A stretch of 64,000 bases of DNA from an uncultured Poribacteria bacterium (GTDB taxonomy: Bacteria > Poribacteria > WGA-4E > PCPOR2b): contig OY282444.1 in NCBI GenBank assembly GCA_958296125.1, forward strand, positions 4,435,623 to 4,499,622, written 5' to 3'. Below, piece after piece: positions 45,306 through 53,911 of this stretch (the stretch's first letter is position 1; each line of letters opens with the position of its first letter). Below the pieces are notes generated by a model that saw only the letters and a list, made by a program, of their open reading frames with translations, made no database searches and was not told the origin of the DNA. A program made the position numbers and the translations under genes.

Positions 45306-46013
45306 TTAAATTATACCTTCTTCCTTCATACTAATATAGCACGCGTCCCCGATAATAACGTGATCTGTCACTGGGATATTGAGCAACTTCCCTGCCTCAA
45401 TCAACTGCCGCGTCGCATGAATATCCTCCGGGCTCGGTGCGGGATCGCCGGATGGATGGTTATGCACAAGAATGATTGATGCTGCCGCTTGCTCTATTGC
45501 GAACCGAAAAACTTCGCGGGGGTGAATGATGCTCGCATTTAAGCTGCCTTCAAAGATACGGCGCTGCTTAGTCACATTGTTTTTTGTGTCGAGGCAGAGG
45601 ACATGGAGCTCCTCTTTTTGCAGATCTCGCATCGAAGGCATCATAAGTCGCGCAACACGCACAACATCGCTGGGGGAACTAATCTGTGGCTTTACTTCAA
45701 GAAACGCTGCCATCCGTCGTCCCAACTCAAAAGCTGCCCTGATTTGACCCACCTTCACCGGGCCCATTCCTTTGACACCTTCTGCAATCTGTATCTCGCT
45801 GTTATCTGCCAACCGCTTCAGGTTACCGTCGTACTTCTGAAGCAGCTGTTCTCCAACCTGAACGGCTGTTGCGGTTCCCGTTCCGGTACGAATAATAATT
45901 GCAATCAGTTCTGATGTTTTGAGTGCCGGCGGCCCATATTTATAAAGCCTTTCGAGCGGCCGCTCATCTTCGGGAAGGTCTTTCAACCGAGGCCGATATT
46001 CTGCTGTTTCCAT
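45306..46013 (-). CDS. radC: RadC family protein (JAMM/MPN-domain)
   Basis: 235 residues from ATG 46013, chosen because AAGGA lies seven bases before it and the family begins near RPRLKDLPEDERPLERL; an ATG seven codons earlier is possible. The N-terminal helix-hairpin-helix-like region (IQIAEGVKGMGPVKVGQIRAA) precedes the JAMM metal-binding motif VHNHPSGDPAPSPED (about 173-186). RadC is linked historically to DNA repair, but its biochemical role is unsettled. JAMM proteins elsewhere are isopeptidases for ubiquitin-like tags, so its position, divergent from a tagging-proteasome operon, is noted, though radC is widespread without such operons. Confidence 0.9.
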   Translation of the reverse strand: METAEYRPRLKDLPEDERPLERLYKYGPPALKTSELIAIIIRTGTGTATAVQVGEQLLQKYDGNLKRLADNSEIQIAEGVKGMGPVKVGQIRAAFELGRRMAAFLEVKPQISSPSDVVRVARLMMPSMRDLQKEELHVLCLDTKNNVTKQRRIFEGSLNASIIHPREVFRFAIEQAAASIILVHNHPSGDPAPSPEDIHATRQLIEAGKLLNIPVTDHVIIGDACYISMKEEGII

Positions 46014-46077
46014 TGTTATATCCTTAGTAGCCATCCATTGTGTCCTATACTCATTAAAATAGAAAATTGTAAGGCAG

Positions 46078-46106
46078 ATTATAACAAAATCAGGACAGAA
46101 AGGCAA
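46078..46106 (-). promoter_or_regulatory. radC promoter
   Basis: On the minus strand TTGCCT (46101-46106), 17 bases, perfect TATAAT (46078-46083), 64 bases before the radC start. It is divergent from the proteasome-operon promoter 85 bases away. Confidence 0.55.
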
Positions 46107-46190: not shown

Positions 46191-46219
46191 TTGATGTTTG
46201 CCTATTGATGTGATAGAAT
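46191..46219 (+). promoter_or_regulatory. promoter of the proteasome/UBact operon
   Basis: TTGATG (46191-46196), 17-base spacer, TAGAAT (46214-46219), 58 bases before the ATPase start at 46278. No other convincing promoter lies between the six genes, whose gaps are small or negative. Confidence 0.55.
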
Positions 46220-46277
46220 ACAAATGCACTTATATGATGAGTTATGTGACTGACCATCTTGTTTGAGGAGGGGCTCA

Positions 46278-48032
46278 ATGCGTAATCAGAACGATAGAAA
46301 GCGACCTGAGACCATACCAGAAGAAAATTTTCGACTATTTGACGACGACCTCGAGGACGAAGTTGAGGACGATGATAATCAGGTGGGCACCCCTCGTTCC
46401 CTGATGTTAGTGGATCGGCTCATTTATGCGACCCATGAGAACGATCGGCGGCGACCGCTACTGTTTCAACTTCGGCGTGCAATTGTGGAAGATGAAATGA
46501 CCTTTCAGGAGGCGAGGGAAGCCATAGTTGAAATGCAGGAGACAATCGAAAAGTTGACTTCTCCTGCAAACCGGATCGGAACGCTGCTTGGCATGCCGAA
46601 AAAGGAGGTCGCTCATGTCATTATCGGCGGATCCGAATATTATGCGAATATTGACCCGCAGCTGGATGCCGCAGCCCTCAAGATCGGTTTTAGTGTCCTC
46701 CTTAATGATGCTTACGTCATTGTCGGTGAATTGGGATATAACACCTCTGGTTCAATTGCAAAAATCATTGATTTGATGCCTGACGGGCGGCTGCGCGTCG
46801 GCGGTGAACCTACTGGATTGCAATCGATCACGTTGCAACGTTCGACCGATTTAGCCAATGCGAAACTTAAAGTCGGCGACGAAATCCGCATGGACCCGAA
46901 CTCCAAAGTAGCCCTAGAACGTTTAGAAGCACAAGAAGCACAGGATTACTACCTCGAAGCCGTGCCGGACCTTCCTTGGTCGAAAGTGGGCGGCTTGGAC
47001 GAGACCATCCAACTCATCAAAGATACCATCGAACTGCCGATTTTACACCCGGACCTCTTCGATACGTTTCAATACGCGCCCCCGAAAGGCTTCCTCTTGC
47101 ACGGGCCGCCGGGGTGTGGGAAAACACTCATCGGGAAGGCGACGGCGCATAACCTGACGCAACGATTGAGCGAAGAAGAAAAGGTTGATGTGGAAGGATG
47201 CTTCCTGCACATCAAAGGGCCCGAAATCTTGAATATGTGGCTTGGCGAGTCGGAGCGCAAAGTCCGTGAAATCTTCCAGATAGCGCGTGAGAAGAGTAAA
47301 GAGGGCTATCTCCCCTTTGTATTCATTGATGAAGCGGAATCGATTTTAGGAACGCGCCGTTCATTCCGTTCCCATAACATTTCCAACACGGTAGTCCCAA
47401 TGTTCTGTGCCGAAATGGATGGAATTGAATCCTTGCAGGATGTTGTAATTATCCTTGCAACGAACCGCCCCGATCTGATTGATCCTGCGATTTTACGCCC
47501 CGGCAGAATCGATCGAAAAATTAAAGTCACCCGTCCCGACAAAGAGGCATCAAAGGCGATTTTCCGTGTTTATCTCACGCCAGATTTACCACTTCACCCC
47601 GAAATTCTTGATGCCCACAACGGCGATGCAGAGGTGGCGATTTCTCACCTCATTGGTCAGGTCTGCGATGAACTGTTCCAGCGAGATGAAGGTAACAAGT
47701 TCTTAGAGGTTGTCCTGCGAAGCGGTCGCCGTGATGTTATGTATCGGGGCGATCTATGTAGCGGTGCCATTGTTGACTCCATCGTTCAACGCGCCAAAGA
47801 GTCCGCAATTAAACGGGCGATAGAGGGTAGCGAAGGCGAGGTCGGGATTCGGACTGAAGACCTGTTAGAAGGTGCATTGGCGGAATATCGTGAGAACGAC
47901 ATCTTCCCGCCGACAGATAGTATTGAGGACTGGCTCAAGCTGCTCGATTATGATCCGGAGAACGTTGTCAAAGTTACGCCAATCCGTCCGGAGAAATCAA
48001 CCCGTAGAATAGCTGCGAGTCGTGTGATTTAG
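46278..48032 (+). CDS. arc: proteasome-activating AAA ATPase (ARC/Mpa type)
   Basis: 584 residues from ATG 46278, GAGGAG eight to nine bases upstream. An acidic disordered head (about 15-37) and a coiled-coil segment (about 63-95, LRRAIVEDEMTFQEAREAIVEM) would bind the modifier. OB-fold region about 100-220. AAA domain: Walker A GPPGCGKT near 276, Walker B FVFIDEAES near 346, sensor/Arg-finger region ATNRPDLIDPAILRPGRIDRKI near 395. The hexameric ring unfolds tagged proteins and feeds the 20S core. The C-terminus is ...RRIAASRVI, without the penultimate Tyr (HbYX-like QYL in mycobacterial Mpa) used for docking on the core. First gene of the operon. Confidence 0.93.
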   Translation: MRNQNDRKRPETIPEENFRLFDDDLEDEVEDDDNQVGTPRSLMLVDRLIYATHENDRRRPLLFQLRRAIVEDEMTFQEAREAIVEMQETIEKLTSPANRIGTLLGMPKKEVAHVIIGGSEYYANIDPQLDAAALKIGFSVLLNDAYVIVGELGYNTSGSIAKIIDLMPDGRLRVGGEPTGLQSITLQRSTDLANAKLKVGDEIRMDPNSKVALERLEAQEAQDYYLEAVPDLPWSKVGGLDETIQLIKDTIELPILHPDLFDTFQYAPPKGFLLHGPPGCGKTLIGKATAHNLTQRLSEEEKVDVEGCFLHIKGPEILNMWLGESERKVREIFQIAREKSKEGYLPFVFIDEAESILGTRRSFRSHNISNTVVPMFCAEMDGIESLQDVVIILATNRPDLIDPAILRPGRIDRKIKVTRPDKEASKAIFRVYLTPDLPLHPEILDAHNGDAEVAISHLIGQVCDELFQRDEGNKFLEVVLRSGRRDVMYRGDLCSGAIVDSIVQRAKESAIKRAIEGSEGEVGIRTEDLLEGALAEYRENDIFPPTDSIEDWLKLLDYDPENVVKVTPIRPEKSTRRIAASRVI

Positions 48033-48044
48033 GATGAGGCGTTT

Positions 48045-49565
48045 ATGCAAAGACTTTTTGGAATCGAAACTGAATATGGAATTACGCTGGAGTCAGAGAA
48101 GAATGTCGATCCTGTTAATCAATCCGTTGAGTTGATTAAGAGTTATCGACAGGATGATTTCCGACCGATGTGGGATTATAGTGGCGAAGATCCGTTCCAA
48201 GACGAGCGCGGCTTCCGGGCAAAAACCTTACAGGAACACCCCGACGAGCAGGAACATCAGGAAGCCGACCGCCAGCGAAATCTGTCTTTCGTCGAAATTA
48301 AAAGCGATCTGATTTTGACCAATGGGGCCCGTTTATACAACGATCATGCCCATCCCGAATACTCCACCCCAGAATGTCGCAGCCTTTTTCAATTGGTCGC
48401 TCACGATAAAGCAGGAGAACAGATACTTCAGCAATGCGCCATCAGGCGAAGCGAAAAATTGGGCAAGCGCGTCCTGCTGTATAAAAATAACACCGACTTT
48501 CATGGACACAGTTACGGTTGCCACGACAATTACCTGATGTCGCGGGATATACCCTTCGATGACCTCAAAGCGAGTATCCTGCCATTTTTTGTGACACGAC
48601 AGATTTTTGCCGGGGCGGGGAAGGTCGGAATCGAAACGGAGTCGGGATTGACCTCCGCCGGTGTCTTCCAGCTGGCACAACGGTCCGATTTTTTCCACGT
48701 CGAAGTCAGCGTAGATACCATGCACAACCGCCCGATCGTGAATACGCGCGATGAACCCCACGCCGATCCGGCAAAATACCGTAGGCTGCACGGCATTGTC
48801 GGCGATGCCAATATGTCAGAGTATACGACAGCAATCAAGATCGGTACAACTGCACTCGTCATCGATCTCATTGAGCAGAAACGCATCCCCAATTGGTTTA
48901 CGTTGCAAAACCCACTCCATACGATTAAAGAAATCTCCCGCGACCAGACCTATCAATGGCGATTTAAATTAGCCAACGGCAAGAGTATCTCCGCAATCGA
49001 TTTGCAGCGCGAATATCTCGCGCTAGCCCAAAAGCATCTCAACGCTGAAAGTGAGGATACCGACTGGGTCCTCGTCGAATGGGAATCTATTCTCGATGCG
49101 CTCGAAAAAGATCCGATGGATCTCACGGATCGATTGGATTGGGTTGCCAAGAAGTGGCTGCTAGAAACCTTCATCGATGAGGAAGGACTCACTTGGGATG
49201 ACCCGTGGCTACAGAGCCTTGACCTCGAATATCACAACATTGATCAGGAGGCGGGATTATATTATGAGCTTGAAGCGAGTGGATTGGTGCGGCGGCTTGT
49301 CACCGATCAGCAGGTTGACAGTGCCATCCACAATCCACCCGCTGATACTCGTGCATATTTTCGGGGCAAATCATTAGACAAATTCCGTCCACAGGTCAAA
49401 TCGATCCAATGGGATAACGTTACCTTTAATATAAAGGGCAAAAGTCCTGTCTCAGTAAGTATGAACCAACTCGCGGATGCAGAGATGGCAGAGAAGTACA
49501 ATCGCATCCTTGACCAAGCGCAGACGGTTGAAGCGTTAGTTAAAAATTTAGAACTTAGTAGCTGA
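48045..49565 (+). CDS. dop: Dop: depupylase/deamidase-like enzyme
   Basis: 506 residues; ATG follows GATGAGG, 12 bases after the ATPase stop. Carboxylate-amine-ligase fold like glutamine synthetase: the ATP/Mg Glu lies in FGIETEYG (about 5-12) and the catalytic Asp in YNDHAHPEYSTPEC (Asp100). The Dop-specific variant DHAHPEYS, rather than the PafA form, and a long charged loop at about 45-80 before it (the Dop loop) mark it as Dop. It would cleave the isopeptide bond between modifier and substrate. Because the modifier gene already encodes a terminal Glu, a deamidase role seems unnecessary here. Paralogue of the last gene in the operon. Confidence 0.92.
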   Translation: MQRLFGIETEYGITLESEKNVDPVNQSVELIKSYRQDDFRPMWDYSGEDPFQDERGFRAKTLQEHPDEQEHQEADRQRNLSFVEIKSDLILTNGARLYNDHAHPEYSTPECRSLFQLVAHDKAGEQILQQCAIRRSEKLGKRVLLYKNNTDFHGHSYGCHDNYLMSRDIPFDDLKASILPFFVTRQIFAGAGKVGIETESGLTSAGVFQLAQRSDFFHVEVSVDTMHNRPIVNTRDEPHADPAKYRRLHGIVGDANMSEYTTAIKIGTTALVIDLIEQKRIPNWFTLQNPLHTIKEISRDQTYQWRFKLANGKSISAIDLQREYLALAQKHLNAESEDTDWVLVEWESILDALEKDPMDLTDRLDWVAKKWLLETFIDEEGLTWDDPWLQSLDLEYHNIDQEAGLYYELEASGLVRRLVTDQQVDSAIHNPPADTRAYFRGKSLDKFRPQVKSIQWDNVTFNIKGKSPVSVSMNQLADAEMAEKYNRILDQAQTVEALVKNLELSS

Positions 49566-49600
49566 ACCCCTAAATCTATTCTCTTACAGGAGGCACTACC

Positions 49601-49798
49601 ATGACAGCACAGCATTTGATTTATCTACGCGATCGGATTCAGCGACCGGTGAAACCGGCGGGCCCAGGTGACGGTGGGGACGATGATGGTCCCAAACGTC
49701 CAGATGTTACGAGACCCGATACAAGAAATCTGGTTAGGCGGATGCGGCGCGTTGATAAAGACCAATCCAGGCGTTATCGCCAACGAACAGGTGAATAG
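49601..49798 (+). CDS. ubact: UBact, Pup-like protein modifier ending Thr-Gly-Glu
   Basis: 65 residues, AGGAGG eight bases upstream. A small, charged, probably disordered protein: basic head (LIYLRDRIQRPVKP), Gly/Asp-rich middle (AGPGDGGDDDGP) and a conserved-looking tail KRPDVTRPDTRNLVRRMRRV, then DKDQSRRYRQRTGE. The tail and its ending match, from memory, the UBact family described in several Gram-negative phyla, where the end is R-(T/S)-G-(E/Q) instead of the Gly-Gly-(E/Q) of actinobacterial Pup. The final Glu side chain would be ligated to substrate Lys by PafA. Its position between dop and prcB is the same as that of pup in actinobacteria. PrcB begins 3 bases after its stop. Confidence 0.9.
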   Translation: MTAQHLIYLRDRIQRPVKPAGPGDGGDDDGPKRPDVTRPDTRNLVRRMRRVDKDQSRRYRQRTGE

Positions 49799-49801
49799 CC
49801 C

Positions 49802-50611
49802 ATGACAAATTACAAGGGGGATTTCCTCGACCTCTTGAAGGCGCACGATTGCCAGATTCAACTAGATCTGCCCGTTACACCGACAAGTGGGGCTTCGTCT
49901 CCTCTTCAAGAAACAGAAGGGACAACTGTCCTCGCTGTACGCTATAAGGATGGCATCCTCATCGGTGGAGACCGGCGGGCAACGGCGGGCAATGTTGTCA
50001 TGTACGATCGCGCGGAAAAGCTGTTGCAGATTGACGAATACTCTGTCCTTGCGATCGCGGGTTCCCCTGCGATGGCTTATGAAATGGCGCGAGTCCTCGA
50101 ACATTCGTTCCAATATTTCCGCCGAAGCCAACTTCAGGAGTTGAGCATCGAAGGCAAACTGCGTATGCTCTCCCGCCTGATTCGCGACAATTTGCCCATG
50201 ACGTTGCAGGGCATCGGAGGTGTGATACCAATCTTTGCCATCTACGATCTGCTGACTGAGGATGAAAACGGTGGTAAGATTTTCTTTTACGACGCACTCG
50301 GCGCACATTTCGAGAGTGCTGACTTTGCGACATCTGGATCCGGCTCTGTGTGGATTCGTGGGGTTTTGTTCTATCAGAACCGTTGGGGCGACACGCCACT
50401 TGCCGATATGGATGAGCAGGAAGCAACTGTTACTGTTTTGCGTCTGCTTGATGCAGCTGCGGAATACGATTCGGCGACAAGCGGCTATAACCCCAAATCA
50501 AATATTTATCCAACAGTAAAAACGATTACGAAGGACGGAATTCAAGATCTCTCTGCCGAAAGGCTCCGAGAGATTTATGCTGAATCTGTAGAAACAACTC
50601 ATGCTAGATGA
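49802..50611 (+). CDS. prcB: proteasome beta subunit
   Basis: 269 residues. A 40-residue propeptide ends ...ETEG before the catalytic Thr41 (TTVLAVRYKDG), then GILIGGDRRATAGN with the conserved Asp and Arg and AEKLLQI with the active-site Lys region, as in PrcB. The propeptide should be removed autocatalytically to expose the N-terminal Thr nucleophile. Ser-Gly-Ser-Gly (ATSGSGS, about 179-185) corresponds to the conserved SGS motif. Forms the two inner heptameric rings. Its end overlaps the prcA start by 11 bases, ensuring balanced production of the two subunits. Confidence 0.95.
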   Translation: MTNYKGDFLDLLKAHDCQIQLDLPVTPTSGASSPLQETEGTTVLAVRYKDGILIGGDRRATAGNVVMYDRAEKLLQIDEYSVLAIAGSPAMAYEMARVLEHSFQYFRRSQLQELSIEGKLRMLSRLIRDNLPMTLQGIGGVIPIFAIYDLLTEDENGGKIFFYDALGAHFESADFATSGSGSVWIRGVLFYQNRWGDTPLADMDEQEATVTVLRLLDAAAEYDSATSGYNPKSNIYPTVKTITKDGIQDLSAERLREIYAESVETTHAR

Positions 50612-51395
50612 ACCTTATCGGTGGCTCGAAGCCGTTAATAACCGACGCGACTATATCGAAGACCAACTTCGCGGCGGAAGCCCCGTCGTCGGACTGAAAT
50701 ATGATGATGGGCTTTTACTTGTGACCATTGGACGCGGACAGCGTAAAATCTTTGAGGTACATGACCGGATCGCACTCTCAGCTATCGGGCATAGTGCCGA
50801 CATTGAACGGTTGCGCATGATGGCAACTGACACCGCCTCCGTGCAAGGTTTCCAAAGTTCAGTTGATGATTTAACCCTCCATCGCCTGACAAACTTTGTG
50901 CTTGGACCAACTATCAAACAATCCTTTGAAGCTATCTTTGGCTCTGCCTATATCATCAAAATGCTGTTGGTGGAACTGGGTGTACGCGGTGCGGCAGAGG
51001 GGTTTATCTCCCTGAACTACGATGGCACCGTGCAAGCGAATCAACACCGGGAAGTTATCGGTGGAACCCACGAAGCTGAAACAGCGATGCAGAATTACCT
51101 ATCCGCCGCTGATACCTCCGAATTTTCGCTCACCTCCGCCTTACAGTTCGCTCTAGAAACCTGGGTGGTTGGTTGGGAGCTGGGAGTGCAACAAGCGGAG
51201 GACGATTCAGAGGAGAACGCAAACGAGAGGTCGGAATCAACGATGGACAAAGAGCGACTGCACGAAGTTCTGCGAGATGAATTGAAGGCAGGAGAGATTG
51301 AAGGGGCAGTATTGGAGGCTTCGCGTCGAAGCAATAGCAAGTTTCGTCTTTTGACTTCGGATGAAATTAATGCAGCAATTTCAGACTGGCTTTAA
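50601..51395 (+). CDS. prcA: proteasome alpha subunit
   Basis: 264 residues; start inside the end of prcB. Begins MLDEPYRWLEAVNNRRDYIEDQL, corresponding to the gating N-terminus and helix H0 of PrcA, then SPVVGLKYDDGLLLVTIGR and FEVHDRIALSAIGHSADIERLR. It lacks a processed Thr, so it is the structural outer ring. After the core fold (about residue 200) it has a long acidic extension (QQAEDDSEENANERSESTMDKE) and a second helical segment ending AAISDWL, perhaps a flexible tail on the ring surface where the ATPase docks. Forty-two bases precede pafA. Confidence 0.93.
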   Translation: MLDEPYRWLEAVNNRRDYIEDQLRGGSPVVGLKYDDGLLLVTIGRGQRKIFEVHDRIALSAIGHSADIERLRMMATDTASVQGFQSSVDDLTLHRLTNFVLGPTIKQSFEAIFGSAYIIKMLLVELGVRGAAEGFISLNYDGTVQANQHREVIGGTHEAETAMQNYLSAADTSEFSLTSALQFALETWVVGWELGVQQAEDDSEENANERSESTMDKERLHEVLRDELKAGEIEGAVLEASRRSNSKFRLLTSDEINAAISDWL

Positions 51396-51437
51396 TACAG
51401 GTACGGACAAACCCGCATTTGTCCTTGAGGCAAAATA

Positions 51438-52898
51438 GTGAGCAGACGGATTTTCGGTATCGAAACTGAATTTGGATGCATGGCAGACTCGGATAGCTCG
51501 TTAGGCTCTTCGGAAGGGACCGCCGCACTCGTGAGGGATTATATTTTTCACGAGCTGAAACTCGGAATGTCGGATATGCACTACCGAGATTGGGGAGAAC
51601 CGCCCGGCAATGGCGGCTTTCTGTTCAACGGTGGACGGCTCTACATCGATATGGGACATCTTGAGTATGCGACACCGGAGTGTATCAACCTTTTCGATCT
51701 AATCGCTTACGACAGAGCCATCGAGCAGTTGGTTATCACCATTCTCGACGATGTTGGGTTGAAAGACGATATCTCCTTCTTCAAAAACAACATCGATCAT
51801 TTCACAGGGGCAACTTTCGGCTGTCACGAAAACTATCAACTCCGGCGCGATATCCCCTTCTACAAAGTCGTCATTCCCACGCTGCTGCCATTCTTTGTCA
51901 CGCGGCAGATTTACGCAGGGGCTGGTCGCGTTGGCGGGCATGAAGAGATCCTCGAATTCGGAGATGCCCACCATCGGCGCGACGCTTTCGTCGGCTTCCA
52001 AATCTCCCAACGTGCCGATCATATCGTCACGGAGATTTATGAGTGGATACAATTCAGCCGTGCAATAATTAACACACGGGATGAGCCGCTCGGTGACTAT
52101 ACTAAATATCGACGACTTCACCTGCTCGTCGGCGATTCAAACATGTCCGAATTTGCATCGGCTTTGAAGGTTGGAACAACTTCTCTGATACTCGATCTTC
52201 TTGAGGCAGGGCATCGTCCCCGCGATTTAAGCTTAATCAATCCGGTGCACGCTATCAAAGAGGTCTCGCGGGATCAGACCTTCCAGTGGATTGTCGAACT
52301 AGAATCCGGCGGCACCATCTCAGCGATAGACCTGCAACGTGAATACCTCAATCTCGCACAGAAAGTCCTAGCAGGCAGAGATGCAGATACAGATTGGGTT
52401 TTGACCGAATGGGAATCGGTTTTGGACGACTTGGAAGCAGATTCAGGGCGTTTAATCGATCGCGTCGATTGGGTGACGAAGAAATGGCTGCTTGAGGCTT
52501 TTATGGAGGAGGAGGGGTTAGAGTGGGACGATCCGTGGATCGAGAGTCTTGATCTGGAGTATCATCACCTCAACCGAGAGAAGGGGTTATATTACGAACT
52601 TGAGCGCGCAGGGCACGTGAAACGGGTCACGACGGATGAACAGATTGAAGCGGCGATCCAGAATGCCCCCGAAAATACAAGGGCAAAAGCTCGATCCCAT
52701 GTAATGCGTTATCTGGCTCGACACCGCCTGCCGTGTATCATCGATTGGAACCAAATCTACTTTTCGCACGAAGAACCTTTTGAGATGAAAGATCCCTTCG
52801 AGACCTACGATGTGGAAGTCGAAGACCTGTTGAAGCGGTTAAGCCAACAACCCCGCCCGGTTTCAAGGCAGAAGCGCATCCGGTTAAGGCGAGAGTGA
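51438..52898 (+). CDS. pafA: PafA: ligase joining the modifier to substrate lysines
   Basis: 486 residues; GTG start, with TTGAGG about 9 bases upstream. Same fold as Dop, but without the Dop loop. ATP/Mg Glu in FGIETEFG (about 6-13); catalytic Asp in GGRLYIDMGHLEYATPEC (Asp71), the PafA-type variant. It would activate the terminal Glu of UBact with ATP as a gamma-glutamyl phosphate and transfer it to substrate Lys. The sequence reads DMG-HLEYA where most PafA have D-x-G-S-HPEYA, a one-residue shortening next to the catalytic Asp. The C-terminal domain (about 430-486) is helical and basic at the end. Last gene before the terminator. Confidence 0.92.
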   Translation: MSRRIFGIETEFGCMADSDSSLGSSEGTAALVRDYIFHELKLGMSDMHYRDWGEPPGNGGFLFNGGRLYIDMGHLEYATPECINLFDLIAYDRAIEQLVITILDDVGLKDDISFFKNNIDHFTGATFGCHENYQLRRDIPFYKVVIPTLLPFFVTRQIYAGAGRVGGHEEILEFGDAHHRRDAFVGFQISQRADHIVTEIYEWIQFSRAIINTRDEPLGDYTKYRRLHLLVGDSNMSEFASALKVGTTSLILDLLEAGHRPRDLSLINPVHAIKEVSRDQTFQWIVELESGGTISAIDLQREYLNLAQKVLAGRDADTDWVLTEWESVLDDLEADSGRLIDRVDWVTKKWLLEAFMEEEGLEWDDPWIESLDLEYHHLNREKGLYYELERAGHVKRVTTDEQIEAAIQNAPENTRAKARSHVMRYLARHRLPCIIDWNQIYFSHEEPFEMKDPFETYDVEVEDLLKRLSQQPRPVSRQKRIRLRRE

Positions 52899-52941
52899 GC
52901 TCCTTCGTGGCACATCGAAATTCATCTGAATCAACCAAATG

Positions 52942-52966
52942 GCGATGTCAACACATCGCTTTTTTT
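52942..52966 (+). terminator. intrinsic terminator of the proteasome operon
   Basis: Perfect 7-bp stem GCGATGT-CAAC-ACATCGC followed by a seven-T run, 44 bases after the pafA stop. This closes the operon before era. Confidence 0.85.
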
Positions 52967-53014
52967 ATGCTATTAAATCAAGCCTCTTCGCCTAAGTAGG
53001 CACGGAATCCTCAA

Positions 53015-53911
53015 ATGCAAGAACAGAACCCATTCAAATCTGGCTACGTTAGCATCATCGGTGAGCCAAACGTCGGCAAATCAACGCTGCTGAATGCAGT
53101 GATGGGGGAGAAACTCGCAATCGTCACTCCGAAGCCGCAGACAACACGCAACCGGATCACAGGGATTCTCACAACCGATTCGTATCAAATTATCTTCCTA
53201 GACACGCCCGGTGTGCTTACCCCCAAATATCGCTTGCACAACCAGATGGTCAAAGCCGCATATAGCGCGATTACAGACGCAGACCTTGTGCTTTACATGA
53301 TCGATGTGAATCGGCTAAATTCCGGCATTGAGGAAAAAATTCTTGACGAACTTAAAAAGGCAGCGCAGCAAGTCATACTAGTAATTAACAAAATTGATCT
53401 GATACCTTCCCCCGCACTGTTGCCAATTATTGCCGACTATCAGGAAAAGTTTCCCTTCCTCGAAATCATTCCAATCTCGGCAACACTGGATAACGGCGTA
53501 TCTCAACTTCACGAATCCATCGTCAAGCACCTTCCCAAAGGTCCCCCCTACTTTCCCCCCGACCAACTCAGCGACCTACCGGAGCGTTTCTTTGTCTCTG
53601 AAACGATACGGGAGCAGATTTTCCTCAGAACTAATCAAGAGATTCCCTACGCCTCCAGCGTCGTGATTGAAGAGTTCAAAGAACGTCCAAACGGAAAAAT
53701 CTATATCAGTGCGCTGCTGTATGTCGAACGACAATCGCAAAAAGGCATCCTAGTTGGGAAAGGTGGTAGAACAATCAAAAGGATTGGTCAACTCGCCCGC
53801 GCAGAGATTGAGCAGTTCTTGAAGACAACCGTATTTCTGGATTTGCGTGTGTCTGTCAAAGCCGATTGGCGACGCAATGAACGAAAATTGAAGGATCTGG
53901 GGTATCTCTAA
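53015..53911 (+). CDS. era: GTPase Era
   Basis: 298 residues. G-domain motifs in order: G1 GEPNVGKST (about 16-24), G2 TTRNRITG, G3 DTPG (about 63-66), G4 NKID (about 128-131), G5 SAT. The C-terminal KH domain has the GKGGRTIKRIG loop (about 249-259) that binds the 3' end of 16S rRNA. Era is needed for 30S ribosome assembly and is membrane-associated. Full length. Weak ribosome-binding site. It is not part of the proteasome operon, being separated by the terminator. Confidence 0.96.
   Translation: MQEQNPFKSGYVSIIGEPNVGKSTLLNAVMGEKLAIVTPKPQTTRNRITGILTTDSYQIIFLDTPGVLTPKYRLHNQMVKAAYSAITDADLVLYMIDVNRLNSGIEEKILDELKKAAQQVILVINKIDLIPSPALLPIIADYQEKFPFLEIIPISATLDNGVSQLHESIVKHLPKGPPYFPPDQLSDLPERFFVSETIREQIFLRTNQEIPYASSVVIEEFKERPNGKIYISALLYVERQSQKGILVGKGGRTIKRIGQLARAEIEQFLKTTVFLDLRVSVKADWRRNERKLKDLGYL

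Follow-up and report, generated by a model that had tools for sequence, protein, structure and literature searches.

UBact and Pup proteasome operons on one Poribacteria chromosome probably encode separate tagging pathways

Can one bacterium run two tagging and proteasome pathways side by side and, if so, what would keep them apart? The question is raised by a six-gene operon, ARC-Dop-UBact-PrcB-PrcA-PafA, found in a 64,000-nucleotide stretch of DNA (the window) from an uncultured Poribacteria bacterium (assembly GCA_958296125.1, contig OY282444.1). The operon occupies window positions 46278-52898, all on the + strand, and carries the small protein tag UBact; the same chromosome also carries an operon for the tag Pup. 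We consider it likely that a complete UBact tagging and degradation pathway stands here beside the Pup pathway, the two being kept apart by tag charge with matching enzyme halves, and by the tails of their ATPases. This reading of separate pathways draws on trees that split by set, on the ATPase tails, on charge and on the mosaic structure of Dop and PafA; these features, like the components, catalytic residues, gene order and second operon, were all read from sequence.

UBact systems were reportedly described by Lehmann et al. in 2017 (Biochemical and Biophysical Research Communications, BBRC, 483:946; doi 10.1016/j.bbrc.2017.01.037). In Gram-negative bacteria the known systems consist of a tag of this family, homologues of the ligase and of Dop, and a proteasome, and the window operon resembles them. 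UBact operons of this plan are already known, and taken alone the window operon is an ordinary example. In contrast to the known systems, it shares its chromosome with a complete Pup system, and an ATPase tail, a charge pattern and a mosaic Dop/PafA history are described for it here. A search of the open-access literature, to which the 2017 paper and most subscription journals do not belong, gave no statement of Pup/UBact coexistence, nor of the tail, charge and mosaic patterns.

Two operons on one chromosome

Tag, enzyme, ATPase and 20S families were assigned with curated Pfam and NCBIfam cut-offs. A preliminary description of the window had proposed six contiguous genes with intergenic gaps of, in order, 12, 35, 3, -11 and 42 bases, and all six open reading frames were confirmed at these places:

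46278..48032, + strand: ARC/Mpa-type AAA ATPase, 584 amino acids (PF00004, PF17758, PF16450)
48045..49565, + strand: Dop, depupylase/deamidase type, 506 amino acids (TIGR03688 509.6 bits, cut-off 492.3; PF03136 575.9)
49601..49798, + strand: UBact tag, 65 amino acids (PF20513 67.5 bits, cut-off 27.8; NF033388 73.7, cut-off 35)
49802..50611, + strand: PrcB, proteasome beta subunit, 269 amino acids (PF00227 81.1 bits)
50601..51395, + strand: PrcA, proteasome alpha subunit, 264 amino acids (PF00227 24.0 bits; N-terminus MLDEPYRWLEAVNNRRDYIEDQL)
51438..52898, + strand: PafA, tag ligase, 486 amino acids (PF03136, Pup_ligase, 469.2 bits; acidic C-terminal half)

The 65-residue protein had been named UBact from its sequence, and the profile searches bear this out, as it exceeds both curated cut-offs; the same searches gave no match to Pfam Pup or TIGR03687. 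Its C-terminus, YRQRTGE, has the UBact-type ending R-T-G-[EQ] and, as the last residue is Glu, prior deamidation should not be needed. PafA- and Dop-type enzymes adjoin the tag, and the same locus holds genes for the proteasomal ATPase and for both 20S subunits, alpha and beta. The catalytic residues that had been listed for the set were all located. ARC combines AAA and proteasomal-ATPase OB domains, with Walker A (GPPGCGKT) at 276 and Walker B (FIDEA); Dop has the catalytic Asp100 and the Dop-loop motif WDYSGEDPFQDERG at 43; PrcB has a propeptide (1-40) ending in Gly just before the catalytic Thr41; and PafA has the catalytic Asp71.

Against the Pup-type equivalog models, however, four of the proteins score below cut-off: ARC (TIGR03689, 471 bits against 504.75), PrcB (TIGR03690, 176.4 against 191.9), PafA (TIGR03686, 371.2 against 551.3) and PrcA (TIGR03691, 71.5 bits), the weakest sequence match of the set. 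Such scores are what would be expected of a sister lineage. The best of five structure predictions for PrcA (predicted local distance difference test, pLDDT, 86.8; the other four were poor, scoring 61-68) nevertheless resembles the Mycobacterium tuberculosis proteasome with an E value of 7.6e-16. The candidate pocket lysine of PrcA, K49, is invariant in the alignment. By its tag family and its ARC tail, neither of which is of the Pup type, the operon is predicted to encode a UBact system and not a Pup system.

The actinobacterial Pup-proteasome (Mpa/ARC, Dop, Pup, PrcB, PrcA, PafA) has its gene order and all enzyme families in common with the window operon, and both have a Glu/Gln-ended tag (Y-x-Q-x-x-G-[EQ]), the Dop-loop and the catalytic Thr and Asp. 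The window tag is nevertheless basic where Pup is acidic, no similarity between the two could be detected upstream of the end, and ARC terminates in VI instead of GQYL. The preliminary description had taken the common order as a sign of inheritance as a block. This holds in so far as the same order and UBact-side clades are found in Latescibacterota, Nitrospirota and one Armatimonadetes genome; the UBact set is, however, a deep lineage separate from the Pup set, with no recent copying from Actinobacteria.

A Pup_ligase search of the window's genome found, besides the two copies in the window, two more elsewhere (four in all), and a second operon was located as follows:

Contig 474433-480940 (locus L005, 8434-14941): ARC-Dop-Pup-PrcB-PrcA-PafA, in the same order as the window operon

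Its tag is a canonical Pup ending in GGE (PF05639 63.5 bits; TIGR03687 over cut-off). The tag, ARC, Dop, PrcB and PrcA all exceed their NCBIfam cut-offs, with PafA at 532.3 bits falling just below 551.3, and ARC ends in GGAYL. From these components (Pup, Dop, PafA, a GxYL-tailed ARC, PrcB and PrcA) the second operon is predicted to be a complete Pup system. It has the six-gene order and predicted functions of the window operon, but differs from it in having Pup (GGE) and the GGAYL tail where the window operon has UBact and ASRVI. No match to the Bpa/PafE activator was found in this genome, nor in any control genome searched.

The two operons lie 4.0 Mb apart on one 5.16 Mb contig or, if the chromosome is circular, about 1.14 Mb apart the other way round. 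Between the sets, identity is 41% for ARC, 41% for Dop, 37% for PrcB, 28% for PrcA and 40% for PafA, and pairwise comparison of the tags detected no similarity except the shared end Y-x-Q-[RK]-x-G-[EQ]. A recent duplication of one operon was considered and rejected on the basis of this low identity, the dissimilar tags and the separate clades seen across phyla. We likewise reject the idea that the second operon arose from contamination or from faulty binning or assembly. The organism is uncultured and contamination of its genome is estimated at 3.9%, but the probability of such an origin is negligible given that both operons share a contig and that, of 85 genomes in the phylum, 71 have both tags, several of these genomes being single-contig.

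Homology with the Pup system suggests how the window set may work. PafA, using ATP, would activate the C-terminal Glu of UBact and join the tag to target lysines; Dop would take UBact off its targets; and the ARC ring would bind and unfold UBact-tagged proteins, feeding them to its own PrcA/PrcB 20S core for digestion. Beside a complete Pup pathway in the same cell, separation would come from the oppositely charged tags with their matching enzyme halves, and from different ATPase tails serving different 20S cores. Such a scheme supposes that the genes are expressed, that the enzymes are active, that the tag is recognised by the C-terminal enzyme half and that there is no cross-talk between the pathways, all of which we infer from the sequences.

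Trees and ATPase tails

In the ARC, PrcB and PrcA trees the sequences split into UBact and Pup sides with support 100 and no swapped member, the window ARC falling in the UBact-side clade (support 100). The trees also place the remaining enzymes with Dop and PafA, as had been proposed, and not with ordinary glutamine-synthetase-like ligases; UBact-side PafA forms a clade with support 100/100 and UBact-side Dop one with 97/91.

Proteasomal ATPases as a rule dock via a penultimate aromatic residue. The window ARC ends in ...ASRVI, a di-aliphatic tail, and not in G-x-[YF]-L. The same type of end is found in 72 of the 75 distinct UBact-side ARC tails (58 VI, 6 II, 4 VV and 4 IV), the exceptions being IE (two tails) and IG (one), while every Pup-side tail (28/28) has the form G-x-[YF]-[LF]. 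In mycobacterial Mpa, the GQYL tail enters the alpha-ring pockets and is needed for proteasome opening (PMC8755798, PMC12288473). Since GQYL docks Mpa and the UBact-side tails differ from it, the di-aliphatic tail is a candidate alternative docking element of the UBact pathway. Its conservation calls into question whether docking by a penultimate aromatic residue holds for all proteasomal ATPases.

Tag charge and the two halves of Dop and PafA

The two tags carry opposite charge: over the last 36 residues, mean net charge is +6.6 for UBact (range 4 to 8, 53 distinct sequences) and -11.3 for Pup (-16 to -2, 34 distinct). The C-terminal halves of the enzymes (residues 246-420 in window PafA) differ in charge as well, with means of -14.9 for Dop and -14.3 for PafA on the UBact side, versus -0.2 and -4.8, respectively, on the Pup side.

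In a published analysis drawn largely from actinobacterial and Nitrospirae sequences (PMC7947786), Dop and PafA are described as two clusters that arose from an ancient duplication. The tree of the N-terminal part (61-245) agrees with this published duplication, separating Dop from PafA with support 96/93. The C-terminal part (246-420), in contrast, separates UBact-side from Pup-side enzymes with support 100/99.8 and rejects the division into Dop and PafA (log-likelihood difference 120; approximately unbiased (AU) test, p 0.0017). The full-length tree by itself is not decisive, as a clade of Dop survives the AU test (p 0.21), and the alignment had to be divided. The boundary near 245 was picked after viewing sliding identities, a choice that makes the tests on the two parts partly dependent on the data. 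Charge bias as the source of the C-terminal tree was rejected: after masking of all D, E, K and R residues, the grouping into UBact and Pup sides stands at 100/99.3, and the Dop and PafA division is again rejected (AU p 0.0001).

Repeated homogenisation of the C-terminal part of Dop and PafA within each operon appears to fit these trees best. Convergence of the two enzymes on the same tag, with no gene conversion, is possible but the less probable account. Selection by one shared tag could make both enzymes alike, and the C-terminal half is compositionally biased. The grouping nevertheless survives the masking of charged residues, and is also seen in identity at uncharged positions. Moreover, within the Pup set, Dop groups with PafA inside Nitrospirota (97/92) and again inside Poribacteria (93/86), and such recurrence within phyla is what repeated homogenisation predicts.

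Several observations count against a clean separation of the pathways. The tag end Y-x-Q-[RK]-x-G-[EQ] is nearly always common to both tags, so some cross-reaction at the active sites is plausible. In M. tuberculosis PafA, S119 of the N-terminal half belongs to the Pup-holding groove (PMC11642889); as the groove includes N-terminal-half residues, the acidic C-terminal half may not touch the tag. The tree of the N-terminal part does not reject a split into UBact and Pup sides (AU p 0.11). Finally, some lineages keep a UBact operon without a di-aliphatic ARC tail: Ca. Manganitrophus, where ARC ends in SKIG, and two deep Nitrospirae, where it ends in RAIE.

The shared tag end is also one of the points in favour of overlapping, partly interchangeable operons, in which the tags of one set react with the enzymes of the other and either ATPase feeds either 20S core, giving the cell redundancy or condition-specific expression. 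The two Dops are, in addition, still about 49% identical over their catalytic halves, and the PrcA candidate pocket lysine is kept. We regard interchangeability as unlikely, given the opposite tag charge with matching enzyme halves, the consistently different ATPase tails, the lack of any swapped component in the trees and a PrcA identity of just 28%.

Extending separate pathways from this chromosome to Poribacteria and many Nitrospirota, we tentatively propose that two insulated pathways are present in these groups, that ARC docks through its di-aliphatic tail on the UBact side, and that in both systems the half of Dop and PafA that reads the tag has been repeatedly homogenised within the operon, keeping their specificity shared. 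This wider proposal falls somewhat short of probable. If the pathways are insulated, they would represent a natural experiment on how specificity is kept between a ubiquitin-like tag and the ligase, remover and proteasome that act with it, and would offer two orthogonal degradation systems ready-made. After trypsin digestion, UBact should leave TGE on lysine and Pup should leave GGE, so that existing metaproteomes could be searched for both.

Distribution and flanking sequences

Among 85 Poribacteria genomes, UBact was detected in 76 and Pup in 78; five have UBact only, seven Pup only and two neither. Some of the absences are probably assembly gaps: one genome in which UBact was not found (G071) has four Pup_ligase copies. 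In Nitrospirota, Pup is present in 90 of 198 genomes, UBact in 70 and both in 63, a co-occurrence far above chance (Fisher p 5e-22, uncorrected for genome relatedness). A search of 23 genomes from the remaining UBact-bearing groups gave no Pup, while all three Nitrospirota genomes reached in the same way had both tags.

This distribution also bears on whether the UBact operon might be a decaying remnant, with the Pup set alone at work. Elsewhere in the class, the downstream pafA of a UBact locus in G064 (L050, C3:103300-113500) is fragmented by several stop codons, the tag and other genes remaining, and UBact was not detectable in the seven Poribacteria genomes that have Pup only. A remnant is nonetheless highly improbable for the window, where the six genes are intact with their catalytic residues present; other genomes throughout the order repeat the six-gene arrangement with open frames, and UBact is found in most genomes of the phylum.

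The genome had been taken as non-actinobacterial, and its named relatives prove to be Candidatus Poribacteria: many of the named genomes with a UBact-side PafA belong to this group, and some of their loci are nearly as similar to the window as those of its own genus. Other UBact loci are found in Latescibacterota (some records being labelled Gemmatimonadota), Verrucomicrobiota, Nitrospirota and Armatimonadetes. Gene order repeats in other genomes on the UBact and Pup sides alike. In Poribacteria family f7 (L051-L054) the order is UBact-PrcB-PrcA-PafA, with no ARC and Dop upstream; a Dop-like gene is present on a separate contig (C171) in one member, G066, and the operon seems to be split in this family. 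In four Nitrospira-like genomes (L187, L189, L191 and L193) the detected Pup gene stands apart, with about 5 kb or more between it and any ARC, Dop, proteasome or PafA gene, and the Pup-type Dop/PafA pair lies about 45-200 kb from it. One genome (G084; L085, L086) has two Pup-type operons as well as a UBact operon, possibly through duplication or strain mixture.

The last residue of the tags varies (L051, L052, L057 and others). UBact mostly ends in Glu and sometimes in Gln, while Pup ends in Gln in much of the order and in Glu in the window's genus. The need for deamidation can therefore differ between two systems of one cell. Both tags end in Gln in none of the genomes read, although the cases are few.

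Sites resembling a promoter and a terminator flank the window operon:

46191..46219, + strand: possible promoter, TTGATG-17-TAGAAT, with TG before the second hexamer (9/12 consensus match)
52941..52967, + strand: intrinsic terminator-like hairpin, GGCGATGT-CAAC-ACATCGCT (8-pair stem, 52941-52960), then a T run

The preliminary description had called the promoter good and the terminator strong. The terminator-like hairpin and T run are indeed the best such site in the region, where 10 terminator-like sites were found against 8.4 ± 3.3 in shuffles, which is not an enrichment. The promoter is more tentative than had been supposed, because promoter-like sites are not enriched over shuffles either (11 against 7.8 ± 2.8). 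Beyond these sites lie a RadC-like gene upstream (45306-46106, - strand) and an Era-like GTPase gene downstream (53015-53911, + strand), both named from their translations. This arrangement, with radC upstream and era downstream, is kept in the closest loci only (L080, L088, L105 and L114).

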